35,603 nucleotides of DNA, taken from contig JAFTRE010000018.1 of assembly GCA_017462385.1 (NCBI GenBank), forward strand, positions 1 through 35,603. Direction: 5' to 3'. Made by a program: the position numbers and the translations under genes. Positions 9,424 through 35,371 of this stretch are shown one piece after another; position 1 is the stretch's first letter; each line of letters begins with the position of its first letter. Origin of the DNA: Clostridia bacterium (GTDB lineage Bacteria > Bacillota > Clostridia > Oscillospirales > CAG-272). The notes below the pieces were generated by a model. That model made no database searches and was not told the DNA's origin. It was given only the letters and a program-made list of their open reading frames with translations.

Positions 9424-9838
9424 ATTTTACGATTGTGTTGACCCCGCGCTTTTGCGTTTTTCGGTGATCGTGGCGCGCTCCGAGGGAAAGCTGGTGCTTT
9501 GCAAGCACAGGGAGCGTGACACATATGAGGTGCCGGGCGGGCACATAGAGCAGGGCGAGAGCGCCGAGGAGGCCGCGCGGCGGGAGCTTTATGAAGAAAC
9601 TGGGGCGATCGATTTTACCATACGCCCCGTTTGTGCTTATTCCGTTGAGGGAAAGAACAGAGTAAACGAGAACGGTGAGAAAAAATACGGAATGCTGTTT
9701 TACGCCGAGATAACGCGATTTGAGCATGAGCTGCACAGCGAAATGGAGCGCATCGAGCTGTTTGACGAGCTGCCGGCGGCGCTGACATATCCCGAAATAC
9801 AGCCTGCGCTGATGCAGGAGCTCAATCGCCGCACATAG
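9413..9838 (+). CDS. NUDIX hydrolase
   Basis: A 141-residue NUDIX protein that would hydrolyse a nucleoside diphosphate linked to a moiety X. The Nudix box is complete at residues 43-66: G, five residues, E49, seven residues, then RELYEETG. The preceding VPGG is also typical. I place the start at ATG 9413, not at a codon 33 bases upstream, because AGGGAG lies eight bases before it. It overlaps the end of the ATPase gene by 11 bases. Similarity to MutT-type enzymes suggests pool sanitation such as 8-oxo-dGTP removal, but substrate cannot be assigned. Confidence 0.85.
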   Translation: MKIEFYDCVDPALLRFSVIVARSEGKLVLCKHRERDTYEVPGGHIEQGESAEEAARRELYEETGAIDFTIRPVCAYSVEGKNRVNENGEKKYGMLFYAEITRFEHELHSEMERIELFDELPAALTYPEIQPALMQELNRRT

Positions 9839-9841
9839 GGC

Positions 9842-9870
9842 TTGCATTGCGGAAAAATATCTGCTATAAT
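9842..9870 (+). promoter_or_regulatory. SigA-type promoter for the PHP-domain gene
   Basis: TTGCAT (9842-9847), 17-base spacer, TATAAT (9865-9870), about 28 bases before the ATG at 9898. Its position also argues against an upstream TTG start that would overlap the -35 element. Confidence 0.7.
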
Positions 9871-9897
9871 ATAAAAAACTTGTGTGAGGTACATGCA

Positions 9898-10743
9898 ATG
9901 ATACATTCCGACTGGCATATACACAGCGAATATTCCTATGACGCAATGCTTCCGCTTGAAACGCTTATTGCCCGCGGGCGCGAGCTGGGATTGCGCCGTT
10001 TCGGCGTGACAGACCACGCAAATTACAATGACGAAAAATTTTTGGGCGATCTGCGCGCCTCGGCTGAAAATGTCAAGCGCGCTCAGGCAGATTGCCCTGA
10101 GCTGATACTGGGCGTGGAGCTGACGCCTATAGCCAGGCCGGAGTTTGATTATATAGCTAAGACAGGCACCCGCGAGGGCTATGTCGCGCCCATTCAGGAC
10201 ACGCCGTATGATATTGAGTTGGCGGCGACAAAGGAGGAGTTGATCTCGCTCGGGGTGCGTTATGCCATCGGCGCGGCACATTGGCGAGTTGACGTTGCCG
10301 ACCGCGCCAACGCCGACAACAGCCTCGATAACCTCATAAAAGAGTGGTACCGTCAGCAGATGTGGCTGGCTTGCGATGAGCGAGTGACAATACTGGGGCA
10401 TCCGTGGTACAACGGACGTGCGGTGTGGTACGAGGATTTTTCGGTCATTCCGCACTCTATGAATATGGACATTGCCGCCGCGCTCAAAGAGAACGGTAAA
10501 TATGTCGAGTGCAATGTTTGCATGGTGTGCGCGGGCAAGGCAAGCGAAAAGTTCCATCATCAGTATGCCGAGTTTTTGCGTGAGCTGTTTGAGATGGGCA
10601 TACCGATTACTTACGGCTCTGACTGCCACGGCAAGCCCACGGGTGAGTACCGTGACCGCCGCGGTGCCGCCGAGAAGATTCTTGCCGCCGCAGGATTTCG
10701 CGACGGAGACATTTCCGAGCTTCCGGAAGAAATTTTGTGGTAA
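9898..10743 (+). CDS. PHP-domain metal-dependent phosphoesterase-like protein
   Basis: A 281-residue PHP (polymerase and histidinol phosphatase) domain protein. The metal-site motifs are HSDWHIHSEYSYDA at the N-terminus, GVTDHANYND near residue 35, GVELTPIARPEFDYI in the middle, AIGAAHWRVDV, ILGHPWY, and the C-terminal GSDCHG. The start at ATG 9898 has GAGGT eight bases upstream and its own promoter. Family members include histidinol phosphatase and various phosphoesterases. This one is too generic to name a substrate and has no his genes around it. It ends with a strong terminator. Confidence 0.8.
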   Translation: MIHSDWHIHSEYSYDAMLPLETLIARGRELGLRRFGVTDHANYNDEKFLGDLRASAENVKRAQADCPELILGVELTPIARPEFDYIAKTGTREGYVAPIQDTPYDIELAATKEELISLGVRYAIGAAHWRVDVADRANADNSLDNLIKEWYRQQMWLACDERVTILGHPWYNGRAVWYEDFSVIPHSMNMDIAAALKENGKYVECNVCMVCAGKASEKFHHQYAEFLRELFEMGIPITYGSDCHGKPTGEYRDRRGAAEKILAAAGFRDGDISELPEEILW

Positions 10744-10760
10744 ATAAAACCGAAAATGCA

Positions 10761-10787
10761 AAAAGCGCTGAATTTCAGCGCTTTTTT
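10761..10787. terminator. Bidirectional intrinsic terminator
   Basis: A 10-bp stem AAAAGCGCTG/CAGCGCTTTT with a five-base loop, followed by a T run on the plus strand and flanked by A residues that give a U run on the minus strand. It lies between the convergent PHP and dgoK genes. Confidence 0.85.
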
Positions 10788-10790
10788 TGT

Positions 10791-10888
10791 CGATATGTCC
10801 GCCTGTGGCGGACACGATATAATGCCGCATTGCGGCATTTCGATATATTTGACGCAGGCGTCAAATTCGATATGCGCGCTAAGCGCGC
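10791..10888. repeat. Array of four short hairpins separated by CGATAT
   Basis: Four different palindromes follow each other: 10796-10814, 10821-10839, 10848-10865 and 10874-10888, with stems of 6-9 bp. Each is preceded by the same hexamer CGATAT (10791, 10815, 10841, 10868). Stem sequences differ while the spacers are constant, so this is not a simple tandem repeat. It sits between the convergent PHP and dgoK genes, directly after the terminator. Confidence 0.75.
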
Positions 10889-13556: not shown

Positions 13557-14876
13557 TTATTTGAGTATCTCATCAATAGCCGTGCCCTGCGCGTCGGGTA
13601 ACTCGACGCCGAGAATTTTTGCGTAGGTGGGCGCCTCGTCGACTATGGGGCGGCGGTCAAGCACAACACCCTCCTTGATGTGAGGTCCCTTTGCGACCAG
13701 CGTCGGCTGAGGGCCGAGGTCGGGAAGATATCCGTGGGTTGCCGCGCCGAAGCGGAAGTCGGTCAGGTCAATGGGCTGAATGACGGGACGCTTGCAGCTG
13801 TCCGAGAATGAGGTGTAGCCGTCGGACTCCAGCACAAAGCTGAAATCTCCCGACAGATGCTCGCTCTCCTCCAGCTCCTCACGGCGGAACACCTTCGAGA
13901 AGCCGTAAATGCCCTCTTCGCACATGTCGCAAAGCAGCTTGTATACGGCATCGTAGGTCTCTTTGTCATTCGGATCCTTGAGAAACACCATGCTGGACAT
14001 GGCGTTGGAGAGGCAGTATGCCTTCCAGCTTGTAGGCCTGCTTTTTTCGTTAAGCTCGATAAAGCCGTGGTCGGCGAGGTAGACATTGGGCTTGATGGTG
14101 CGCTTGATGTCGCGCTGACCGTGGTCGCTGACCAGGAAGAAGTCGGTGTCCTGCAGCACGCCTGCCGCTTCGAGCGCTTCGCCGAGCTGTCCTATCCAAC
14201 CGTCGACGAGGTCAAGCTCGCCCTTCAGGCACTCTGCCATTGCACCGTTTTTGTGGCGGGCGTTGTCCATGTTTCCGTTGTGCACGAAAACCACCTCGGG
14301 GGAATACTCGCGTATGATGTCACAGCAATTGGTGATGAGGAAGTTATCGACCTCGGGGTGTATCATGAAGTTTTTGCGGCCTGTCAGCTTGTAAGAGTCG
14401 GCAAGCAGATGCGCGTTTTTCTCAATTATTTCAAGGCAAGCTTCATTTGCACCCGCGCGGGCAAAGGAGGAGCGCAGTGTGTCGTCCTTTTGGGGCATCC
14501 AGTATTCGGTGATATTGTAGTCGATGCAAGGGTGGTTGCCCGTGACCGTCCAGAACACTGCCGCGGTGGAGTAGCCTGCCGCTTTGGAGGCGGTGAAGAT
14601 ATCGCCGCATTTTATATTGTCCGCAAACCACAGCCAGGTGTCTTCCTTGCTGTCGGTGGTGAAAGCAAAGTTGGAGGAGATGCCGTGGCGGTCGGGGTAG
14701 CAACCGCTCATCATGCTGACATGGGAGGGATAGGTGACGGAGGGGTAGACAGTGCGAATGGTGCGCACCTCACTGCCGCCTGCCAGATATTTTTTAAAAT
14801 TCGGCTTTGTGCGAAGGTAGTCGATGTCCTCACTTATCATGGCATCGACTGAGAAGACCAAGATTCTTTTTTTCAT
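13557..14876 (-). CDS. Type I phosphodiesterase / nucleotide pyrophosphatase (alkaline phosphatase superfamily)
   Basis: A 439-residue cytoplasmic enzyme of the alkaline phosphatase superfamily. Metal and active-site motifs are VFSVDAM at the N-terminus, the nucleophile region SVTYPSHVSMMSGCYPDRHG near residues 46-65 (Thr as nucleophile), HNGNMDNARHKNG near 203, LVSDHGQ near 247, and a late ATHGYLP histidine near 386. It would hydrolyse phosphodiester or pyrophosphate bonds; the substrate is unknown. AAGAAAGGTAG precedes the start. It is divergent from a LacI-family regulator, and an operator-like palindrome lies 20 bases upstream of its ATG, so control by that regulator is plausible. Confidence 0.85.
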   Translation of the reverse strand: MKKRILVFSVDAMISEDIDYLRTKPNFKKYLAGGSEVRTIRTVYPSVTYPSHVSMMSGCYPDRHGISSNFAFTTDSKEDTWLWFADNIKCGDIFTASKAAGYSTAAVFWTVTGNHPCIDYNITEYWMPQKDDTLRSSFARAGANEACLEIIEKNAHLLADSYKLTGRKNFMIHPEVDNFLITNCCDIIREYSPEVVFVHNGNMDNARHKNGAMAECLKGELDLVDGWIGQLGEALEAAGVLQDTDFFLVSDHGQRDIKRTIKPNVYLADHGFIELNEKSRPTSWKAYCLSNAMSSMVFLKDPNDKETYDAVYKLLCDMCEEGIYGFSKVFRREELEESEHLSGDFSFVLESDGYTSFSDSCKRPVIQPIDLTDFRFGAATHGYLPDLGPQPTLVAKGPHIKEGVVLDRRPIVDEAPTYAKILGVELPDAQGTAIDEILK

Positions 14877-14986: not shown

Positions 14987-16009
14987 ATGGGAAAAACTCT
15001 TGCAGATATAGCTCGTGAGATAGGAGTGTCGACCGCGACGATATCGCGCGTGATGAACAACGATGGCGGTGTAACTTCTGAAACTCGGGAAAAGGTATTG
15101 CGTGAGCTGGAGCGGCTTGATTATCATCCGCGTGCTCGGCGGAGAAGCGTCGCTATGAAAAACACCGACACGGTCATGATAATCGCGGGACAGCTCAATA
15201 ATCCTATAACGCTGGGATACATAGACGGCATTCGCGCACAGCTTGCCGCCGAGGGTATACGCAGTGTCATTTCGCTAACCGATTATGACAGCTGCACCGA
15301 GCGCTCTTTTATCGAATACGCCATCGCCAACAGATATACCGGCATTTTTATTCTCAACGTGGTCGAGAGCGAGCCGCTCATTCGTCTGCTTGAAAGCTCG
15401 CCCATACCCGTGGTGCTTGTCAACCGCTATTTGCGGGCGCTTGACACCGACGTTGTGACGGTAGACAATTACCGCTGCGGATATATGGCAACACAGTATC
15501 TGCTCGGACGCGGGCATCGGCACATTGCCCACATTGCGGGTCCCGAGGGGTCTATAACCTGCCGAAACCGCACGCTGGGATACATCGATGCTATGCACGC
15601 CGCGGGACTTGAGGTCGATGCAAAAGATATTTTTTACGGTGACCGCAAATATTCCAGCGGCTTTGAGTTTGGCAAGATGCTTTCGGCGGCTCCCGCCGAC
15701 GAGCGCGCAACGGCTGTTTTTGCTACGACAGCGCTTATGGCGGCGGGCATGGTAGATGCACTGGGAGAGGGAGGCATCCGTGTGCCCGAGGACATAAGTG
15801 TGATATGCAACGATGATTACAGCAAGGACTATATGCCGTATCCCATGGAGATAACCTGCTTCCGTCAGAATCCGCGTCTTATGGGGCGGACTGCGGCGGA
15901 TCTGTTGCTTGAGCGCGTGCGCAAGCCCAGCATACCGCCGCGGCGCGTTGTATTCCCGCCCGAGCTGATGGAGAAAGGAAGTATTATTTCATATACAACC
16001 CACCATTAA
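14987..16009 (+). CDS. LacI-family transcriptional regulator
   Basis: A 340-residue repressor. The N-terminal LacI helix-turn-helix is at residues 4-23 (TLADIAREIGVSTATISRVM), with the hinge near 45-60. A periplasmic-binding-like effector domain runs from about 62 to the end (MIIAGQLNNPITLGYIDGI, TVDNYRCGYMATQYLLGRGH, VICNDDYSKD). CAAGGAGAA precedes the start. It is divergent from the phosphodiesterase gene and its 3' end overlaps the convergent SDR gene by 26 bases. The ATTACAT half-sites at its own promoter and full sites at the pdhA/lplA promoters make it the best candidate to control both. Effector unknown. Confidence 0.92.
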   Translation: MGKTLADIAREIGVSTATISRVMNNDGGVTSETREKVLRELERLDYHPRARRRSVAMKNTDTVMIIAGQLNNPITLGYIDGIRAQLAAEGIRSVISLTDYDSCTERSFIEYAIANRYTGIFILNVVESEPLIRLLESSPIPVVLVNRYLRALDTDVVTVDNYRCGYMATQYLLGRGHRHIAHIAGPEGSITCRNRTLGYIDAMHAAGLEVDAKDIFYGDRKYSSGFEFGKMLSAAPADERATAVFATTALMAAGMVDALGEGGIRVPEDISVICNDDYSKDYMPYPMEITCFRQNPRLMGRTAADLLLERVRKPSIPPRRVVFPPELMEKGSIISYTTHH

Positions 16010-16742
16010 CGTCAATGACGTCGCCGGTGATGTAGCTGGAGAGGTCGGAGGCAAGAAAGAGGACGGCGTTTGCTATGTCCTCGGGCTGACCGAAGCGGCC
16101 GAGCGGGATGGTCTTTTTGGGGTCGTCCTTGGGGTCGGTCAACCAGGACAGCCCCTGCGCCATAGCTGTAAGTGTTCTGCCGGGGCAAACGCTGTTGGAG
16201 GTGATGTTGTACTCGCCGCCCGACAGCGCGAAGCATTTGGACATGTTGAGAACTGCCGCCTTTGCGGAGCTATAAGCGCAGGAGGAGGAACGGCCGCCGC
16301 GCTCACCCGCCATGGACGAGATGTGTACCAGCTTGCCGTAATTCTGCTGCTTCATTATTTCAAACACAGCCTGAGTGCAGAAGAAGACGCTCTTTATGTC
16401 GAGTGTCTGCATTTTGTCCCATTCCTCGATGGTGATGTCCTCAACGCGAGAGACACCCGTGATGCCCGCGTTGTTGACCCAAATATCTATACGTCCAAAG
16501 ATGTCGCGCATAGCCGCGACTTCTTTTTTTATGTTGTCAAAGTCGGCAACGTTGAATTTGTGGAAAGCGGCGCGATGCCCCTGTGAGGTAAGATCGTCTG
16601 CAACCGCTTGCCCTTTTTCGGTGTTTATATCTGTAACTATAACGGCGGCGCCGAATTCCGCGAGCTTACGTGCTATAGCCTCGCCGATACCCTGGCCGGA
16701 GCCGGTAACTACGGCAACTTTGTTTTCAAGAAGCTGTTTCAT
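15984..16742 (-). CDS. SDR-family oxidoreductase
   Basis: A 252-residue classical short-chain dehydrogenase/reductase. The cofactor motif TGSGQGIG is at residues 14-21, NNAG near 90, and the catalytic Ser with YSSAK near 155. The C-terminal end DVIDVNGGLYMK is typical. The acidic residue after beta-2 (TDIN) suggests NAD(H) preference. It resembles 3-oxoacyl-ACP reductases and sugar or diol dehydrogenases, so the substrate is open. It is the last gene of the operon that begins with the E1 subunits and could reduce or oxidise their acyl or acyloin product. Its 3' end overlaps the convergent LacI gene. Confidence 0.88.
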   Translation of the reverse strand: MKQLLENKVAVVTGSGQGIGEAIARKLAEFGAAVIVTDINTEKGQAVADDLTSQGHRAAFHKFNVADFDNIKKEVAAMRDIFGRIDIWVNNAGITGVSRVEDITIEEWDKMQTLDIKSVFFCTQAVFEIMKQQNYGKLVHISSMAGERGGRSSSCAYSSAKAAVLNMSKCFALSGGEYNITSNSVCPGRTLTAMAQGLSWLTDPKDDPKKTIPLGRFGQPEDIANAVLFLASDLSSYITGDVIDVNGGLYMK

Positions 16743-16760: not shown

Positions 16761-17492
16761 TTAAACGGCAAAGCCGTCGAAATGGTGTTTGCCCTCGACA
16801 TCGGTAATGTCGTACTTGGCGTCAAAGCTTGTATTGTGGATGCCCGCGACCTTTACATTCGCGTTTTTGAGTTGTTCGGGAAGATGGCTGTCATCTGCCC
16901 AACGGACGACTTCAAAATCGCCGTTATCGTCTATCTCCATTGTGGTGATGGATGTGTTTTCAAGGCGTACCATCTGCCAGACATCGCGTATCGGAACATT
17001 CAGCAGCTTAGCCATGATGAGCTGGATGGTCAGCATGTGGCAGGCGATCGCAATCTTGTTTCCGCGCTCGCGATTTACTATGTCAATGATGCCGCGAATA
17101 GCGCGCTCCTGCACCTGCAAAAATGTTTCACCGCCCTCCATGTGCAGCAGGTCGGGCTTGTTTTCCCAAAGGTCGATCTGCCCGGGCCATTTTGCCTCGA
17201 TCTCATCGCGGTTGAGCGTTTCCCAACCGCCGCAATGGATCTCGCGTATATCATCTACGGGAATGATCTCGATATCGCGCCCATTCTGTATGCGCTCGGC
17301 GGTCATCATTGTTCTTTTGAGCGGGCTTGAATAAATGCGGTCAAGTTCAAGCTTGGACATAGGCTCGCGCAAGGTCTCTGCCTGTGCTATGCCGCGCTCG
17401 TTGAGAGGATGGTCGGTACTTCCGATAAAGCGATAGAGTCGGTTGAGATCGGTCTCGCCGTGACGAACTATGTATACTGTAGTTTTTGACAT
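16761..17492 (-). CDS. Histidine phosphatase family protein (phosphoglycerate mutase-like)
   Basis: A 243-residue protein of the histidine phosphatase superfamily. The catalytic RHG motif (YIVRHGETDLN) is at the N-terminus, IYSSPLKRTMMTAE near 52, an acidic REIHCGGWE near 85, and a second catalytic histidine in IAIACHMLTIQ near 151. I set the start at 17492 (MSKTTVYIVRHGE); the open frame extends upstream but has no family sequence there. It lies between the lipoyl-hydrolase fusion and the SDR gene. It could be a phosphatase for a small phosphorylated metabolite; true phosphoglycerate mutase activity is less likely in this context. Confidence 0.85.
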   Translation of the reverse strand: MSKTTVYIVRHGETDLNRLYRFIGSTDHPLNERGIAQAETLREPMSKLELDRIYSSPLKRTMMTAERIQNGRDIEIIPVDDIREIHCGGWETLNRDEIEAKWPGQIDLWENKPDLLHMEGGETFLQVQERAIRGIIDIVNRERGNKIAIACHMLTIQLIMAKLLNVPIRDVWQMVRLENTSITTMEIDDNGDFEVVRWADDSHLPEQLKNANVKVAGIHNTSFDAKYDITDVEGKHHFDGFAV

Positions 17493-17563: not shown

Positions 17564-19252
17564 TTAAAGCCCCAGAGACGCGTAAACTATGTTGCGTATA
17601 CGAGGATGAACTATGCGCTCCTGCGAGTTGAGCATATGTTGAACATAGAAGATGGAAAGCTGATTTTTGGGGTCGATGCCGATGTAAGCACCTGCGGCAC
17701 CTGCCCAACCGAACTCACCGAGCGGCGAGAGCGAGCCGGCGGTGCGGTCGATATGCGTGCGAACGCCCAGACCGTAGCCGTAGCCGCGGAACTGCGGGAA
17801 GGCGCGGTGGAAGTCGCCCAGACGAACATCGTCAAGCTGATTTTCGCGCATGAGGTCGATGGTGGCAGGGGAGAGTATGCGCACGCCCGTCTCACCAACG
17901 CCGCCGCATGCCAGCATGTCTGCGAAAATGCTCATGTCGCGAAGCGTTGAGATCATGCCCGCGCCACCGCTGTCGTAATCGGGTCCGAGAACGTAGCTGT
18001 TGGTCAGCGGGATGGGCTGAGCAGTGCGGGTCTTGTCGTTATAGCGATATTGCGCCGCCATGCGCGACTTATCGATCTGCTCGATGTGATAGCAGGAATC
18101 GTGCATTCCGAGCGGCTCGAATATTTCTTTTTTGACGAATTCGGAGAAGCGCATGCCCGAAACGACCTCTACCAGTGCGGCGAGAATGTCATGAGACAGA
18201 CCGTACAGCCACTGTGTTGAGGGGTCAAAGGTGAGTGGAGATTTTGCGACTGCGCGTGCGATATCGCGGGTGGGGCAACGGCCTTTGGTTTCAACGGCTA
18301 CGTCGTTGATGTTGGCGGTTGCAAGATTGTAGTTCAGACCCGAGGACATGGTGAACAGGTCTCGGATGAGAAGCTGATGCTTGACGGGCTGTGTGTACGA
18401 ACCGCGGCTGTATTCTATGTCGGCATACTCGGGCAGATAGTCCGAGACGGGGTCGAGCAACAGGAACTTTCCGCGCTCAAGCAGCTTGAGTGCCGCTACG
18501 CAGGTCACGACCTTGGAGCAGGAATACATATAGTAAAGTGCGTCGGAACGCAGTGGCTCACCGGTGGCTCTGTCCTGCACACCTGCCTGGCAGTAATAAA
18601 GCTGTTCATGTCCGCGCTTGACGGTCACAGCCGCCGAGGGAATGCCGATAACATCGGTGACATAGCTGATATAGTCGCGCAATGCCGAGAAATCGGCGGG
18701 CGCGGAAATAAGTGCGGGCGCGGCGGGGCGAGACAACGTTGCGGCTGCCGCTTTTACGTCGGCGGGCTTGATAAAGCTGCCGTTTGAAGCAGTGACAAGC
18801 GCCAAGTCAACTCCGAGCTCTGCCGCAAGCTTTTTAGCCGAGGGCATAGCGGGAGCGGCTGCCTTTGCCACGGGCGCGGGAGCAGGTGCGACAAATTCGC
18901 TGACGGGTGCGGGGGCGGCGGGTGCTGCCGCGACGGTAGGCTTCTCGGCGGCGGTTACTTCGACAGGCTCTTCGACAGGTGCCGACTTACCCGACTTTGC
19001 CGCTTCAAGGTCATCCGCGTCGCCGATCTCAAACATGAGCGCGCCTGCGTCAATAACGTCAAATTCATTTATATGAACAGCGCAGACATAGCCTGCGGCG
19101 AAGCTTTCGACGGGCAGAGTTGCCTTGTCTGTCTCAACCTCGGCGACGATGTGACCGCGACCGATCTTGTCGCCAACCTTGACACATATCTGTGTTACGG
19201 TGGCGGTATCGGTCGTCTGTCCGGCGCTGGGCATTATGATTTTTTTGATCAT
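17564..19252 (-). CDS. Lipoyl domain - subunit-binding domain - beta-lactamase-fold serine hydrolase fusion
   Basis: A 562-residue protein in one uninterrupted frame. Residues 1-80 form a lipoyl domain beginning MIKKIIMPSAGQ, with the modified lysine K43 in VETDKATLP. An Ala/Pro/Val linker (90-133) leads to a peripheral subunit-binding domain at 136-170 (PSAKKLAAELGVDLALV, IKPADVKAA). From about 190 to the end is a class C beta-lactamase/esterase domain: nucleophile S244 and K247 in YSCSKVV, Tyr350 in WLYGLSHD, and late GWAGAAG. No HxxxD acyltransferase core of a normal E2 is present. GGAG lies eight bases before the chosen start; an upstream ATG at 19264 is less likely. It follows E1 beta in the operon. 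It may transfer or hydrolyse the lipoyl-bound acyl group; that is inference. Confidence 0.85.
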   Translation of the reverse strand: MIKKIIMPSAGQTTDTATVTQICVKVGDKIGRGHIVAEVETDKATLPVESFAAGYVCAVHINEFDVIDAGALMFEIGDADDLEAAKSGKSAPVEEPVEVTAAEKPTVAAAPAAPAPVSEFVAPAPAPVAKAAAPAMPSAKKLAAELGVDLALVTASNGSFIKPADVKAAAATLSRPAAPALISAPADFSALRDYISYVTDVIGIPSAAVTVKRGHEQLYYCQAGVQDRATGEPLRSDALYYMYSCSKVVTCVAALKLLERGKFLLLDPVSDYLPEYADIEYSRGSYTQPVKHQLLIRDLFTMSSGLNYNLATANINDVAVETKGRCPTRDIARAVAKSPLTFDPSTQWLYGLSHDILAALVEVVSGMRFSEFVKKEIFEPLGMHDSCYHIEQIDKSRMAAQYRYNDKTRTAQPIPLTNSYVLGPDYDSGGAGMISTLRDMSIFADMLACGGVGETGVRILSPATIDLMRENQLDDVRLGDFHRAFPQFRGYGYGLGVRTHIDRTAGSLSPLGEFGWAGAAGAYIGIDPKNQLSIFYVQHMLNSQERIVHPRIRNIVYASLGL

Positions 19253-19369: not shown

Positions 19370-20422
19370 TTACAGGCGAGCCAGCTTGCGTGCTGCGTCT
19401 GCTATCTTTTCAGTGGAGGGAATGACGTAGTTTTCAAGTACAGGCGAGAAGGGAACGGGCGTATCAAGTGCGGCGAGACGAACGATAGGTGCGTCAAGCA
19501 GGAATATCTCGTTTTCCGCAAAGTAGGATGCGACCTGTGCGCCCCAACCGCAGTTATAGTTGTCCTCGTGCACTATCATCAGCTTGCCTGTTTTGCGGAC
19601 GGACTCTACCACAGTCTCATAGTCGAAGGGAAGCAGAGTTCTGGGGTCGATGACCTCACAACTGATGCCTTCCTTTTCAAGCTGTTCAGCCGCCTGCATT
19701 GCCTTGTGGCACATCAGCAGGTTTGCGACGATGGTAACATCCTTGCCCTCACGGCGGATGGCTGCCTTGCCGAAAGGAATCGTGTAATCCTCCTCCGGCA
19801 CCTCGCCCGACGAGTTGATAGCGCCCGCTTCTTTACGCTTGGAGCCGTAAAGAAGTTTGTGCTCGAAGAAGATGACAGGGTTGTTGTCGCGGATGGCCGT
19901 CTTCATAAGACCCTTGGCGTCATAAGCCGTGGAGGGGCAGACGACTTTAAGTCCCGGAACATGTGCAAAATAGGTTTCGGGAGACTGTGCGTGCTGAGCA
20001 CCGCGGTTGGTAGCTCCCGAGGGGCAACGCATGACCATGGGTATATTTAGCGTACCGCCCGACATATATCTCATTTTTGCCGCCTGGTTGACCAGCTGGT
20101 CCATCATGCAGAACAGAAAGTCGCAGTACTGAAGATCGGCAACGGGTCTCATGCCCATCATAGCCGAGCCCACGCAAACGCCTGCGATCATGATCTCGGA
20201 AATAGGTGTGTTGATAGCACGGCCGACGCCTGCTACCTCTTTCTGACCGGGGATGGGAGGAAAGTAACCAAACTCATCTCCGATACCCTTTGTAACGGTA
20301 AAGGCACCTCCCATACCACCGGGAATATCTTCGTCCTCGCCCATACAGTAAACGGCGGGGTCACGGCGCATCTCCTCGGCGATAGCCGCCTTGAGAGCGT
20401 CGGCAATAGACAAAACTGCCAT
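19370..20422 (-). CDS. pdhB: TPP-dependent 2-oxoacid/acetoin dehydrogenase E1 beta subunit
   Basis: A 350-residue E1 beta. Family motifs are the N-terminal ALKAAIAEEMRRDPAVYCMGED, QLVNQAAKMRYMSGG, MVMRCPSGATNRGAQHAQSPE near 128-148, the C-terminal VIDPRTLLPFDYETV, and HEDNYNCGWGAQVAS. It pairs with E1 alpha to decarboxylate a 2-oxoacid (or cleave acetoin) on thiamine diphosphate and reductively acylate lipoyl lysine. Its ATG overlaps the E1 alpha stop by one base. The subunit type is clear; pyruvate, branched-chain and acetoin enzymes cannot be separated by eye, so the symbol is provisional. Confidence 0.9.
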   Translation of the reverse strand: MAVLSIADALKAAIAEEMRRDPAVYCMGEDEDIPGGMGGAFTVTKGIGDEFGYFPPIPGQKEVAGVGRAINTPISEIMIAGVCVGSAMMGMRPVADLQYCDFLFCMMDQLVNQAAKMRYMSGGTLNIPMVMRCPSGATNRGAQHAQSPETYFAHVPGLKVVCPSTAYDAKGLMKTAIRDNNPVIFFEHKLLYGSKRKEAGAINSSGEVPEEDYTIPFGKAAIRREGKDVTIVANLLMCHKAMQAAEQLEKEGISCEVIDPRTLLPFDYETVVESVRKTGKLMIVHEDNYNCGWGAQVASYFAENEIFLLDAPIVRLAALDTPVPFSPVLENYVIPSTEKIADAARKLARL

Positions 20423-21408
20423 TAGTTGTTACCTCCTTCATCGTAAACGTCGCACTCTGCGTCGGCAAGCGCCGGGAAAGGTGCTTTTTGTGCGTATTCA
20501 ACGCTGTCGTCGATAGCAGCGACGACCTCTGCCTCAATCTCGGCGAGCTCGTCCTCTGTGGCGACGCCCTCGGCGAGAATGCGCTCGCGGAACATCTTTA
20601 CGGGATCGTGCTCGTTGAGGTAGTAATTTTCTTCGTCCTTGGGGCGATAACCGCAGGCGTCGTTGCGCGAGTGACCGCCGCGGCGATATGTTTTGAGCTC
20701 AAGTATCGTGGGGCCCTCACCGGCTCTTGCACGGGCGATGGCGCGAGCGGCTGCCTCGTTAACAGCCAGCACATCGTTGCCATCAACGACCTCGGCGGGA
20801 ATGCCGTAAGCGGCGGCGCGATCGGCGGCGGGGTTGGGCATATTGCAGGTTATTTTGATAGAGGTGGTTGCAGAGTAGAGGTTGTTTTCGCAGACGAAAA
20901 TGACAGGCAGCTTCCAGACGGCTGCAGCGTTCATTGTCTCATGGAACGAGCCCTCGTTGGTAGCACCGTCGCCCATAAAGGACATGGCGACATTGTCCTT
21001 GCCCTGCATTTTGAAAGCAAGTGCGGCGCCTGCGGCGATCGGAATGTTGCCGCCGACGATAGCGTTGGCGGGGGGAGCGCCGACCGAGAAGTCACCTGTA
21101 TGCATTGCACCGCCCTTACCGCGGCAGCAGCCCTCGTCCTTGCCGAACATTTCGCACATCATAGAGCGCAGTGTGACGCCCTTTGCGATGTCGTGTCCTG
21201 CGGGACGGTGGGTCGAGAACATAACGTCATCGACTCTCAGGTCATAGATCATACCAACGGCAGACGCCTCTTCGCCGTGGCTCTGGTGGATGGTTCCGGG
21301 CATTATTCCTTCGAGGAACAGATAGTAGATCGTTTCCTCATACTGGCGTATGGTGTACATCGTTTTGTACATTCCAAGCGCCTTTTCCCTTGCGGGCATG
21401 TTTGCCAT
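20422..21408 (-). CDS. pdhA: TPP-dependent 2-oxoacid/acetoin dehydrogenase E1 alpha subunit
   Basis: A 328-residue E1 alpha. The thiamine diphosphate motif begins GDGATNEGSFHETMNAAAVW at 146 and ends with ENN near 175. Upstream are the substrate loop STHRPAGHDIAKG and the motif CRGKGGAMHTGD. GGHSRNDACGYRPKDE near 260 covers the loop that is phosphorylated in mitochondrial homologues. The start at 21408 (MANMPAREKA) has AAAGGAG upstream; the open frame to 21504 runs through the promoter region and is rejected. It leads a five-gene operon with its own promoter and an operator palindrome in the leader. The AcoA/PdhA subfamily is not resolved. Confidence 0.92.
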   Translation of the reverse strand: MANMPAREKALGMYKTMYTIRQYEETIYYLFLEGIMPGTIHQSHGEEASAVGMIYDLRVDDVMFSTHRPAGHDIAKGVTLRSMMCEMFGKDEGCCRGKGGAMHTGDFSVGAPPANAIVGGNIPIAAGAALAFKMQGKDNVAMSFMGDGATNEGSFHETMNAAAVWKLPVIFVCENNLYSATTSIKITCNMPNPAADRAAAYGIPAEVVDGNDVLAVNEAAARAIARARAGEGPTILELKTYRRGGHSRNDACGYRPKDEENYYLNEHDPVKMFRERILAEGVATEDELAEIEAEVVAAIDDSVEYAQKAPFPALADAECDVYDEGGNN

Positions 21409-21606: not shown

Positions 21607-21631
21607 AAATTGATTTGAAAGGGGGATGACC

Positions 21632-22600
21632 ATGATAAATAAACTTACATTTTACATATCCGACAGTTTTGATGTTTACTCCAATATGGCGCTGGAAAAG
21701 CATTTAACGCTTACCGCCGCGCGCGATGAATGTGTGCTGTATTTATGGCGCAATGAGCGTACCGTGGTTATTGGCAGAAATCAGAACTGCTGGGCGGAAT
21801 GCCGTGTCTCAACTCTTGAAGCCGACGGCGGACACCTCGCGCGGCGATTGTCTGGTGGCGGCGCCGTCTATCACGACGTGGGAAATCTCAATTTTACGTT
21901 TGCCGCAAGCGCCGAAAACTACGATGTGGCGCGGCAGTGCCGAGTTATTGCCGAGGCGGTCGGCGAGTTCGGACTTTGCGCCGAGGTCAGCGGACGAAAC
22001 GATATACTGATCGACGGCGCGAAATTTTCGGGCAATGCATTTTGGCGTTTTGGGCAAAATCATTATCACCACGGCACAATACTTATAAGGACAGATACTG
22101 AGGCGATGGCGCGGTATCTTAGCGTTGATCCTGCCAAGCTGAAAGCTAAGGGGGTGTCGTCGGTGCGTTCTCGGGTGGTCAACCTTGCGGAGTTGAGTCC
22201 GGATATTAACGTAAACAGTATGACGGCGGCGCTGAGAAAAGCATTTGGAAAGGTATATGGACTCGAGGTCAACGAAGGAGTATTGCCGACTGCGGAGGTG
22301 CTTGAGCCTATTCGCGCAGAATTTGCGGCGGACGAATGGAAATACAGCCGCACACCCGAGTTTTCGCATAAGCTGACCGAGCGGTTTGCGTGGGGCGGTA
22401 TTATGTTGGAGCTGGATGTCCGAGAGGGATATGTTGTCGACTGTGAGGTGTTTTCCGATGCGCTTGACAGCGAGTATATCGCGTCTCTTGCCGCGCGACT
22501 TATAGGCAATCGCTATGATGCAGGTTCGCTGTGCGCGGCGATCGGAGAGCAAGGGCAGGAGTCACGCGATATAGCGGCACTGTTAAGGAGGGAAATATAA
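21632..22600 (+). CDS. lplA: Lipoate-protein ligase A
   Basis: A 322-residue lipoate-protein ligase that attaches lipoate to the lysine of lipoyl domains using ATP. Family motifs are ARRLSGGGAVYHDVGNLNFT near 70-89 and SGRNDILIDGAKFSGNAFWR near 121-140, with the binding lysine in AKFSGNA. The C-terminal accessory domain is present. I chose ATG 21632 over ATG 21626, because AAAGGGGG abuts the first ATG but is correctly spaced for the second. It is divergent from the E1/lipoyl-hydrolase operon and shares an operator palindrome with it, so its likely client is K43 of that fusion protein. Confidence 0.93.
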   Translation: MINKLTFYISDSFDVYSNMALEKHLTLTAARDECVLYLWRNERTVVIGRNQNCWAECRVSTLEADGGHLARRLSGGGAVYHDVGNLNFTFAASAENYDVARQCRVIAEAVGEFGLCAEVSGRNDILIDGAKFSGNAFWRFGQNHYHHGTILIRTDTEAMARYLSVDPAKLKAKGVSSVRSRVVNLAELSPDINVNSMTAALRKAFGKVYGLEVNEGVLPTAEVLEPIRAEFAADEWKYSRTPEFSHKLTERFAWGGIMLELDVREGYVVDCEVFSDALDSEYIASLAARLIGNRYDAGSLCAAIGEQGQESRDIAALLRREI

Positions 22601-32834: not shown

Positions 32835-33083
32835 AATTAAAGACTGTGACGAAGAATTTCGCAAAGGGAAAGCCTCCAGAGAGCGGGCGTGTGGTGTGAG
32901 TCCGCGGTGAGTAACTGTGCGTCTGTCGCTTCCGAGTCGGTCGGCTGAGGGAAATGCGTGTAGGTCGGCACGTGTGCGCCGCGTTAAGGCGCAGGGCTTA
33001 GATGAGCCTGCTGAGGGGCGCATTTGCGCAATTTGAGTGGTACCGCGGTTTTTCCGTCTCATGCTTTCATGAGGCGTTTTTTG
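32835..33083 (+). promoter_or_regulatory. T-box leader (tRNA-sensing transcriptional riboswitch)
   Basis: The T-box TGGTACCGCGG is at 33038-33048. The antiterminator pairs GAG 33035-33037 with CTC 33058-33060 and GCGG 33045-33048 with CCGT 33054-33057, leaving the seven-base TGGTACC bulge. The competing terminator is a 9-bp stem 33055-33063/33068-33076 with six Ts after it. Upstream, stem I shows a K-turn-like TGA (32847) opposite GAG (32934), AGAGAGCGGGC and GGTGTGAG in the distal loops. The likely specifier is GTC (Val) at 32925-32927. The bulge residue T predicts an A discriminator, which fits tRNA-Val. Family is certain; specificity is tentative. Confidence 0.9.
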
Positions 33084-33115
33084 TTTTATACAGTCATTTT
33101 TTCGGAGGATCAAAA

Positions 33116-35371
33116 ATGGAACCCAGTATTCGTGAAATAGGCGAAAGAATCCAAACTCTGCGCGAGATACTTGAGATCTCCCGCGAGGAGATGGCAAGCA
33201 CCACAGGTGTGAGCGTTGAGCAATATATCGCAATGGAGGAGGGCAAGTCGGATATAGGCATCTCTTTCGCTTACCGTTGCGCGCTGCGCTTCGGCGTTGA
33301 TGTCAACGATCTGCTCGAGGGCAAAAGCCCTACATTGACGGGACTTTCCGTAGTTCGTTCGGGTAAAGGAATAAAGATCGGCAGACGCACGGGCTTTGAC
33401 TATATGTCGCTGGCGCCGCTGTTCAAAAACAAAAAGGCAGAGCCGTTTTTGGTTCTTGCCGCATATAAAGAGGAAGAGCAGCACACCCCGATACATACTA
33501 CCAGCCACGCCGGTCAGGAGATAGACATTATCCGCCGCGGACAGATGAAGCTGGTGGTGGGCGATAATGTTGAGATCATCGGAGAGGGCGACGTTGCCTT
33601 TTTCGACAGCTCGATCCCGCACGGTATGATCGCCGTCGGCGGTGCAGACTGTGAGTTTTACGCCATCGTTATCAACGGCGACGAATCGGCAAAGCAGCAG
33701 CACGTTTCTCCCAAAGCGCCCGAGACTCAAAAAGGTGTGCTGGGTATTGCCGACAAGTTTATAACCACAACCGTGGATGAGGACGGTATTTTTTCGGGCA
33801 TTACCTTCCATGACGACGATAAATTCAACTTCGCTTATGACGTTGTTGACGCTATCGCTGCCGCCGCACCTGACAAGCTCGCACTGCTTCATGTCGACAA
33901 GGACATGACCGAGCGTCGCTTTACATTTAAGGACATCAGCCGTGAGTCCAACCGCGCCGCAAATTATTTCCGTTCGCTCGGCATCAAAAAGGGCGACAGA
34001 GTCATGATGATACTCAAGCGGCATTATCAGTTCTGGATAGCTATGATAGGTCTCAACAAGCTGGGCGCAGTTGCCATTCCCGCAACCAATCAGTTGCTCA
34101 AAAAGGATATCGTATACCGTTTCAACGCCGCAGGCGTCAAGGCTATAATCGCAACTCCCGATGACAATGTGCCGATTCATGTTGAGGAGTCGCTTGCCGA
34201 GTCACCGACCGTAGAGATCAAAATGATAGTAGGCGGTCCTCGTGACGGCTGGCGCGATTTTGACGCCGACCTCGCTTGCTTCTCGTCTCGCTTTGAGCGC
34301 ACCGATGTGGGTGGAGACGATCCGTTACTTATGTACTTTACTTCGGGAACCACGGGCTATCCCAAGATCGCAATGCATGTTCATAAATATCCGCTCGGCC
34401 ACTATGCGACCGCTCGCTTCTGGCACAATGTTGACCCGAACGGTTTGCATCTTACCATTTCGGATACCGGCTGGGCAAAGGCTATGTGGGGCAAGCTTTA
34501 CGGTCAGTGGATGGCGGAGGGCGCGCTGTTTGTATACAACTTCGACCGCTTCCATGCCGAGGACATTCTCCCGCTGTTTGCCAAATACGGCATAACCACT
34601 TTCTGCGCACCGCCCACAATGTATCGTTTCCTTATAAAAGAGGATCTGAGCAAGTACGACCTGTCCTCCATCAAGCACGCCTCCATCGCGGGCGAGGCGC
34701 TCAACCCGGAGGTCATGGAGCAGTTCAAGAAGCACACGGGACTTACTATTATGGAAGCTTTCGGTCAGACCGAGACAACAGTTGTTATCGGAAACTTTGT
34801 CGGAATGCAGCCCAAGCCCGGCTCTATGGGCAAGGCGTCTCCGCTGTATGATGTTGACCTTGTAGACAGCGACGGTAATCCTGTCGCCGACGGCGAGACG
34901 GGCGAGATAGTTATCCGCACCGACAAGGGAATACCCAACGGTCTGTTCCGCGGGTATTATCGCGACGAGCAAAAGACAGCCGAGGCATGGCACGACGGTA
35001 TGTACCATCTGGGTGACACCGCATGGCGTGACGAGGAGGGTTATTATCACTATGTCGGTCGTGTGGACGATCTTATCAAGTCGTCGGGCTATCGCATAGG
35101 CCCGTTCGAGATTGAGTCGGTCATTATGGAGCTGCCTTATGTGCTTGAGTGCGCCATTACAGCCGCGCCCGATGAGATACGCGGACAAGTTGTCAAGGCA
35201 TCCATCGTGCTGGTCAAGGGTACACAGCCGTCGGACGAGCTCAAAAAGGAGATACAAACCTATGTTAAGGAGCACACCGCACCTTATAAATATCCCCGCA
35301 TTGTCGAATTCCTCGACGAGCTTCCCAAGACCGTCAGTGGTAAGATACGCCGCAGCGAGCTGAGAAAATAA
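33116..35371 (+). CDS. HTH (XRE)-cupin-acyl-CoA synthetase fusion
   Basis: A 751-residue protein with three domains: an XRE-type helix-turn-helix at about 8-65 (LREILEISREEMASTTGVSV), a cupin at about 110-190 (HTTSHAGQEIDIIRRG, SIPHGMIAVG), and an AMP-forming acyl-CoA synthetase from about 225 to the end. Synthetase motifs are YFTSGTTGYPK near 406, EAFGQTETT, YHLGDTAWRDEEGYYHYVGR and the catalytic lysine in PKTVSGKIRRSEL. It would activate a carboxylic acid as its CoA thioester, and the N-terminal half suggests it also binds DNA and senses a small ligand. The start has CGGAGGA upstream, directly after the T-box terminator. The acid substrate is unknown; branched-chain or medium-chain acids are candidates. 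Confidence 0.9.
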   Translation: MEPSIREIGERIQTLREILEISREEMASTTGVSVEQYIAMEEGKSDIGISFAYRCALRFGVDVNDLLEGKSPTLTGLSVVRSGKGIKIGRRTGFDYMSLAPLFKNKKAEPFLVLAAYKEEEQHTPIHTTSHAGQEIDIIRRGQMKLVVGDNVEIIGEGDVAFFDSSIPHGMIAVGGADCEFYAIVINGDESAKQQHVSPKAPETQKGVLGIADKFITTTVDEDGIFSGITFHDDDKFNFAYDVVDAIAAAAPDKLALLHVDKDMTERRFTFKDISRESNRAANYFRSLGIKKGDRVMMILKRHYQFWIAMIGLNKLGAVAIPATNQLLKKDIVYRFNAAGVKAIIATPDDNVPIHVEESLAESPTVEIKMIVGGPRDGWRDFDADLACFSSRFERTDVGGDDPLLMYFTSGTTGYPKIAMHVHKYPLGHYATARFWHNVDPNGLHLTISDTGWAKAMWGKLYGQWMAEGALFVYNFDRFHAEDILPLFAKYGITTFCAPPTMYRFLIKEDLSKYDLSSIKHASIAGEALNPEVMEQFKKHTGLTIMEAFGQTETTVVIGNFVGMQPKPGSMGKASPLYDVDLVDSDGNPVADGETGEIVIRTDKGIPNGLFRGYYRDEQKTAEAWHDGMYHLGDTAWRDEEGYYHYVGRVDDLIKSSGYRIGPFEIESVIMELPYVLECAITAAPDEIRGQVVKASIVLVKGTQPSDELKKEIQTYVKEHTAPYKYPRIVEFLDELPKTVSGKIRRSELRK

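Follow-up and report, generated by a model that had tools for sequence, protein, structure and literature searches.

The stretch of DNA analysed here, hereafter the window (35,603 nucleotides, contig JAFTRE010000018.1), is one contig of a single metagenome-assembled genome (MAG; 1.76 Mb, 83.5% complete) of a Clostridia bacterium (Oscillospirales, CAG-272), and it carries a gene in which the front of an E2, the lipoyl-bearing component of 2-oxoacid dehydrogenase systems, runs on into a serine hydrolase. This fusion gene lies at 17564-19252 on the minus strand (a preliminary description of the DNA had the coordinates right and gave no strand), and its frame is unbroken from end to end, encoding 562 amino acids with the stop codon inside these coordinates. 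Its parts, all on the minus strand, are a lipoyl domain (residues 4-76, 19025-19243; Pfam Biotin_lipoyl, E 7.5e-15) with the predicted lipoylation site Lys43 in VETDKA (19124-19126), an Ala/Pro linker, a peripheral subunit-binding domain (residues ca. 134-170, right border drawn by eye, 18743-18853) and a serine hydrolase domain (residues 185-562, 17567-18700) with S244, K247, Y350, the GGAG of residues 429-432 and W516-A-G518. The preliminary description had proposed this order, with K43, S244xxK247, Y350 and GWAGAAG in one frame, and Pfam together with an alignment bore it out: Biotin_lipoyl, E3_binding (27.6 bits against a cut-off of 23.7, a partial match with residues 134-156 aligned) and Beta-lactamase (PF00144, residues 203-544, E 6.4e-59) were all matched. 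What the protein lacks, as had also been noticed at the outset, is the CAT-type acyltransferase core of a normal E2 (hereafter CAT core), and Pfam gave no match to PF00198 in it. The part of the source available describes the acyltransferase as forming, in every 2-oxoacid dehydrogenase complex, the core in both structure and function (PMC8421416).

The N-terminal part is 36-39% identical to the E2 of three CAT-type operons and matches, by sequence, E2 chains among solved structures. An AlphaFold model of the fusion (mean predicted local distance difference test, pLDDT, of 49, from a five-row alignment) is of fair quality in the lipoyl and subunit-binding parts alone, the helices 137-146 and 163-173 of the latter being predicted with a block pLDDT of 74-83; the hydrolase part of the model was unusable. 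The closest solved sequences to the hydrolase half are carboxylesterases (4ivi, E 6.6e-54; 7pp3; Est-Y29). S244, K247, Y308, Y350 and G429/G430/G432 are kept in all 44 aligned homologues, W516 and G518 in 43 of the same 44, and across 51 columns at least 90% conserved in 39 homologues the fusion deviates at two (S345 and F372). All the motifs of a family VIII, subfamily VIII.1-like enzyme are present (S-x-x-K, Y-x-x, W-x-G and G-G-x-G), and the motif table in the accessible portion of PMC9795927 gives SxxK, Y-x-x and W-x-G for that subfamily. Judged by its motifs, this half is a complete family-VIII-type serine hydrolase, presumably cytosolic, as no signal peptide was seen by eye. The earlier label “class C beta-lactamase/esterase” stands as far as a serine hydrolase of PF00144 is meant; class C is better replaced by the family VIII carboxylesterase type, and a class C resistance beta-lactamase was rejected, the motif being W-A-G, not K-T-G, and the best beta-lactamase model shown (NF033085) scoring 42.7 bits against 415. 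The family VIII carboxylesterases EstU1 (4ivi/4ivk), Est-Y29 and EstB (1ci8/1ci9) share the SxxK, Tyr, GGxG and W-x-G of the fusion but are free-standing, and PDB matches cover the hydrolase half of the fusion only.

The two halves meet in frame at a domain border. The ATG at 19252 is preceded by GGAG with a 6-base spacer. Free-standing homologues mostly start M-x-F-x-x-L, the fusion reads A-D-F-S-A-L at that place, and the codon opposite their start Met is GCC (Ala). Around the junction the start-type codons in frame are TTG or GTG (residues 173, 191, 209 and 225), and GGAG is absent from the 20 bases before each of them. Since the internal TTG and GTG codons come without GGAG and the Met position has become GCC, the simplest reading is that the hydrolase belongs to the fusion. 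The E2 linker is therefore joined to the hydrolase at the latter's former start. G+C content shows no sharp break (59.4% and 57.0% on either side of the junction), and third codon positions have 60% and 68%, values inside or close to the range of eight other genes of the window (56-67%).

The gene sits among the genes of a two-subunit E1. Upstream are the E1 beta subunit (19370-20422, minus strand; Transket_pyr and Transketolase_C; 83-86% identical in six relatives) and the E1 alpha subunit (20422-21408, minus strand, start inferred from relatives; E1_dh, E 1e-80; 73-77% in the six), and divergent from E1 alpha lies the lipoate-protein ligase LplA (21626-22600, plus strand; TIGR00545, 318 bits against a cut-off of 280). 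Downstream follow a histidine phosphatase (16761-17492, minus strand, start inferred from relatives; His_Phos_1, E 2.5e-53; 64-93% in the six), a short-chain dehydrogenase (SDR; 15984-16742, minus strand, by Pfam; 76-84% in five relatives), a LacI-family regulator (14987-16009, plus strand, by Pfam; 49-60% in five) and a Type I phosphodiesterase (13557-14876, minus strand, by Pfam; 68-70% in G1002 and G826, where it is syntenic).

Six relatives of the same family (G1002, G871, G826, G931, G1027 and G969) share this cassette, whose conserved order is LplA // E1alpha-E1beta-[E2-E3]-phosphatase-SDR // LacI and which is fullest in G1002 and G826 (hydrolase-LplA // E1alpha-E1beta-E2-E3-phosphatase-SDR // LacI // phosphodiesterase). 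The window has the gene order of G1002 with the fusion replacing E2-E3, and neither a separate hydrolase gene nor a cassette E3. A separate hydrolase of the same type adjoins the cassette genes in all six related cassettes found, and all six copies keep the catalytic residues. It stands on the LplA/E1alpha side, not adjoining E2, in G1002, G871, G826 and G931, with LplA between it and E1alpha in G1002, G826 and G931 (the three relatives in which LplA was found, 45-46% identical); in G969 a second contig bears E3, phosphatase and hydrolase one after the other, and in G1027, where no E3 was matched, the hydrolase likewise comes after the phosphatase. The lipoyl and subunit-binding part of the cassette E2 is 44-49% identical to that of the fusion (G1002, G871, G826 and G1027), and the four cassette E3s checked keep the CxxxxC disulfide. 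Among the nine closest free hydrolases of the family, five lie beside an E1, LplA or phosphatase related to that of the window. Larger regions around 14 hydrolase loci, some of them short at contig ends, gave five with the cassette and nine with no cassette genes found save one weak phosphatase match, and a search of 56 further family genomes for E1beta (E 1e-120) added one, G969. Around 30 free hydrolases, mostly with at most 1.5 kb of flank, no E1, E2 or E3 neighbours were found; the linkage is seen only among nearer homologues.

The E2 is complete in five of the relatives (that of G969 ends at a contig edge after 94 codons). G931 has an intact CAT core (FDHRALDG, PF00198 226 bits), and the other four of the five readable cassette E2s have lost the catalytic His, to I, M, A and A: the motif F/Y-D-H-R-x-x-D-G reads FDIRVIEG in G1002, FDMRVVEG in G871, FDARIFEC in G826 and YDARAIDA in G1027. 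Their PF00198 scores are 50.5, 49, 42.3 and 60 bits, respectively (four more distant CAT-type operons score 261-273 bits), the S/T-N-L-G loop is also missing from all four, and the degenerate cores are 27-52% alike among themselves; their frames have stayed open, and they may serve as scaffolds. Whether homologues would always be split beside a normal E2 core, a point raised in the preliminary description, has a divided answer: they are split in 6/6 cassettes, but the core is normal in only 1/5 readable ones. For E. coli E2o, the accessible part of one study reports that His375Ala leaves 2.1% of complex activity (PMC5986005). That CAT activity is lost in the four is something we infer, and the inference is strengthened because several motifs are lost together. 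In these cassettes lipoate acylation and reoxidation look intact and CAT unloading looks lost; the hydrolase is the obvious substitute for unloading.

The rest of the source assembly offers no second copy. At E 0.001 the fusion protein had no other match in it, and no CAT-core E2 was found there. The sole PF00198 match is a 331-amino-acid stand-alone protein on contig 32 (L002, 1462-2457; 33.9 bits over 55 residues), which reads DERICDG where DHRxxDG is expected, with Glu replacing the catalytic His; without this His and without a lipoyl domain it was rejected as a normal E2. Contig 28 carries an E3 that is strongly matched (470 bits, cut-off 408.8; CxxxxC disulfide kept) and is 68-69% identical to the E3 of two sister species, in which it belongs to an E2(CAT)-E3-E1alpha/beta(fused) operon. 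That operon was otherwise unmatched within 15 kb around the contig-28 E3, which persists without the partners it has in the sister species.

Searches beyond this genome used overlapping samples of the order, family and genus. Within the order 102 of 394 genomes (own included) matched the fusion protein at E 1e-30; among the matches listed all but the own one begin at residue 86 or later, none covering the lipoyl domain, and those with the earliest starts run over stop codons. The N-terminal part by itself matched 37 of the 394 at E 1e-8 (own included), and of the 29 loci read among the best 30 (all but L062) one is the window, 27 have the CAT H-x-x-x-D/G-G and one (L044) is a short frame without the motif. 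The family gave 169 of 295 genomes at E 1e-25, and among the matches listed all but the own one begin at residue 128 or later; within the genus (three genomes) the two sisters were only weakly matched, to CAT-type E2s. No relative of the fusion was seen among viral contigs, and in none of 273 plasmid records did a single place span 80% or more of the fusion query. Other E1beta of the own order are at most 53% identical, and seven of ten regions around them have a CAT-core match in the gene after E1beta; no E2, E3 or lipoyl match was obtained by BLAST in the E1beta regions L097 and L098. A stand-alone CAT-like gene with no lipoyl part detected lies near E1alpha-E1beta in one genome (G052; L093, 3886-4788). 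Across the class, one of 391 genomes besides the window had such an E1beta at E 1e-115 (G508, with a CAT core in its E2); among 67 genomes of the order to which G508 belongs, it occurs in G508 itself only. Among the literature matches listed no lipoyl/E2 plus beta-lactamase-fold fusion was seen, most subscription papers lying outside that coverage.

We think it probable, with considerable room for doubt, that the fusion serves as E2 in a 2-oxoacid (or acyloin) dehydrogenase system with a two-subunit E1, and that a hydrolase has taken the place of its CAT core and unloads the acyl group without coenzyme A (CoA). LplA would load lipoate on K43, and E1alpha-E1beta would reductively acylate the lipoyl group from its substrate. 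The lipoyl arm would then swing into the fused hydrolase, where S244, with K247 and Y350, would take the acyl group from S-acyl-dihydrolipoyl; the acyl-serine would be released to water, giving the free acid, or to a small alcohol (which W-x-G would allow), and not to CoA by way of a CAT core. The dihydrolipoamide dehydrogenase of contig 28 could reoxidise the lipoyl group with NAD. Water would be the simplest acceptor, an alcohol a possible one. That a serine hydrolase is able to cleave an acyl-lipoyl thioester is known from ABHD11 (PMC12643935). CoA-free unloading had been suggested in the preliminary description, and it fits the architecture, the missing CAT core and the degenerate CAT cores of the relatives; these, the catalytic residues and the gene context are read from the sequence, and the chemical steps follow by inference from it. 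A wider proposal, on which we are nearly evenly divided and lean if anything towards doubt, is that one family keeps the stages of core replacement, from an intact CAT core with a linked hydrolase (G931), through a degenerate CAT core with a linked hydrolase (G1002, G871, G826 and G1027), to a CAT core replaced within the same polypeptide (the window), acyl-serine unloading giving an acid or ester and not acyl-CoA.

Several points weigh against unloading by the fused hydrolase. The fusion was found in one MAG only among the genomes searched, and a CAT-core E2 could sit in the missing part of it; the cassette genomes were all chosen for holding a hydrolase match, so hydrolase-free cassettes may have been missed; and no case of a family VIII enzyme cleaving a lipoyl thioester is demonstrated here. 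Degeneration of a CAT core does not have to abolish function, as such a core may be a scaffold, and in the same E. coli E2o, again from the accessible part of the study, His375Trp kept about 60% and His375Gly 13% of activity (PMC5986005). Because G931 holds both an intact CAT core and a linked hydrolase, the latter may originally have done something else. The history of the hydrolase also gives pause. In a tree of 45 hydrolases the six copies from cassettes form a single clade (97/97), and the fusion hydrolase groups with three copies of another family of the same order (98/93), which are not cassette-linked; the cassette six, the fusion and these three form a group of ten (90/91). The fusion and the six cassette copies were united in 2% of 200 bootstrap trees, and holding the seven together was not rejected (p-AU 0.08, 23 rows: the fusion and 22 of the 44 homologues). 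A single origin of the cassette hydrolases including the fusion appears from these trees neither shown nor rejected, the best tree speaking against it, and separate recruitment from the same hydrolase pool is possible; direct orthology between the fused hydrolase and the cassette copies was considered and not shown.

Alternatively, the hydrolase could work upstream of E1: it would de-esterify a sugar-like or other ester into the E1 substrate or a source of it, and the fusion would only tether it to the complex for channelling. The cassette does look catabolic (LacI regulator, SDR, phosphatase, phosphodiesterase), and the intact CAT core of G931, the placing of the hydrolase on the LplA/E1alpha side in four relatives and the carboxylesterases as closest solved sequences all agree with such a role. 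We nevertheless consider it unlikely, as it fails to explain the decay of the CAT core in four cassettes and its absence in the fusion, and leaves no unloading step.

A repair function, in which the hydrolase clears unwanted acyl-lipoyl adducts and CoA transfer is left to another protein, e.g., a CAT-like one elsewhere, seems improbable to us. Its model is ABHD11, which the accessible part of one paper presents as a glutaryl-lipoyl thioesterase acting on the E2 of OGDH (PMC12643935). Like the proposed fusion it is a serine hydrolase and frees E2 lipoate of an acyl group, but it is an alpha/beta-hydrolase, a separate protein with a repair role, and mitochondrial. G931, with CAT core and hydrolase both, would suit such a division of labour, as would the lone CAT-like protein of contig 32, were it not for the short, weak PF00198 match and the Glu in place of the catalytic His of the latter; and a fusion that replaces the core suggests a main step rather than an auxiliary one.

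Quite improbable, too, is that the acyl-enzyme hands its group to a specific alcohol or amine and not to water, as in LovD. Chains named “Transesterase” (4lcl and 3hl9), which we take to be LovD, are among the PDB matches. The accessible part of PMC9795927 links the W-x-G of subfamilies VIII.1 and VIII.2 to acyltransferase activity and reports that changing H-D-G to W-G-G in EstA gave an acyltransferase. Family VIII enzymes, however, also hydrolyse freely. Finally, an assembly chimera joining two genes (an error that the preliminary description had allowed for) or a decaying remnant is very improbable even though the fusion comes from a single MAG and no other searched genome showed it among the matches listed, because it occupies the E2-E3 position of a cassette conserved on both flanks, is joined in frame at a domain border and at the start-Met position of the free hydrolase, shows no sharp break in composition and keeps its catalytic residues.

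A hydrolase in place of the CAT core has a counterpart in acetoin dehydrogenase systems, where E2s of the NF011457 type, presumably those named AcoC, likewise have a serine-hydrolase fold instead of a CAT core and lie beside two-subunit E1 genes. Their core is an alpha/beta-hydrolase, unrelated in fold and catalytic set to the PF00144 core of the fusion, which scores 47.7 bits on NF011457 (cut-off 307), with an alignment confined to model positions 1-104, the lipoyl part. One such E2, in an Aminobacter niigataensis plasmid (L111, NZ_CP132960.1, 4982-6358), passes NF011457 with 404.5 bits and has lipoyl, E3_binding and Abhydrolase_1 domains, and in Rhizobium sp. K1/93 (L110, NZ_CP072149.1, 4982-6265) the same operon (oxidoreductase 85%, E1alpha 78%, E1beta 89% and E2 N-terminal part 52% identical) has an E2 with a CAT core; replacement of the E2 core by a serine hydrolase is thus not unique to the fusion, this swap being a second and independent one. 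The preliminary statement that no enzyme of this architecture had been described therefore holds for this fold and not for the arrangement as such, for which the curated NF011457 exists. Within what was searched, the beta-lactamase-type fold as an E2 core appears unique to the fusion, which is a convergent variant of the E2 core swap already known from the AcoC type. The E3-binding protein (protein X) of mitochondrial pyruvate dehydrogenase (PDH) resembles the degenerate cores in being E2-like with a core that lacks the catalytic His, but it works beside a normal E2 and has no hydrolase. The cassette E2s of G1002, G871, G826 and G1027 belong to the same cassette as the fusion but have a degenerate CAT core attached and the hydrolase separate.

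If unloading by the fused hydrolase is true, the swinging arm can serve chemistry other than CAT transfer, the E2 core has been replaced at least twice by unrelated serine-hydrolase folds (in the fusion and in the AcoC type), and the oxidation of 2-oxoacids or acyloins has an outlet that needs no CoA. The fusion may also hint at how AcoC-type E2s work, on whose mechanism no settling paper was found among the matches listed.

Several features bear on the substrate of the E1. E1beta scores 338.3 on the subfamily model NF006667 (cut-off 321), which the acetoin-type E1beta of Aminobacter also passes (409), and E1alpha stays under its best model, TIGR03182 (320 against 393.85), its closest solved sequence being human PDH E1alpha. 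The gene set departs from that of a PDH complex: the E1 pair is present, no CAT E2 was found and the E3 is on another contig. The SDR passes, among the models shown, only the broad subfamily NF005559 (229 bits, cut-off 215) and stays under the butanediol dehydrogenase model (212 against a cut-off of 270). In the Christensenella hongkongensis-type operon (E1alpha-E1beta-aldolase-E2-E3) the E1 is 66-68% and the E2 N-terminal part 37% identical, and the E2, among aldolase and sugar kinase, has a normal CAT core (PF00198 270 bits). Three distant operons with the same kind of E1 (L004, L005 and L006) have a class II aldolase and two of them an FGGY kinase, the E1 operon of G508 lies with a galactitol-type phosphotransferase system (PTS), and that of an Arthrobacter plasmid with an aldolase, a stand-alone lipoyl protein and an FGGY kinase. 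By analogy, these neighbours point to carbohydrate or acyloin breakdown for this kind of E1.

Some arrangements were noted in passing. In C. hongkongensis itself (L004, 7054-13349) the class II aldolase stands between E1beta and E2, similarly in L005, and an aldolase is also found in L006; in L004 and L005 an E3 and an FGGY-type kinase follow E2, a PDH-like system inside a sugar operon. This Arthrobacter plasmid (L112, NZ_CP084551.1, 1-4642) has, one after another, a class II aldolase, a fused E1alpha/beta, an 85-amino-acid stand-alone lipoyl protein and an FGGY kinase, with no E2 core annotated within that stretch. Elsewhere in the window, a 376-amino-acid frame (9700-10830, minus strand) adjoining a 2-keto-3-deoxygalactonokinase-like gene was matched neither by Pfam (E 0.001) nor by NCBIfam (1e-20), and at 33002-35371 a 789-amino-acid protein joins a helix-turn-helix (47-108), a cupin (161-222) and an acyl-CoA/acetate-CoA ligase (285-781), i.e., a regulator-like front on an AMP-binding enzyme.

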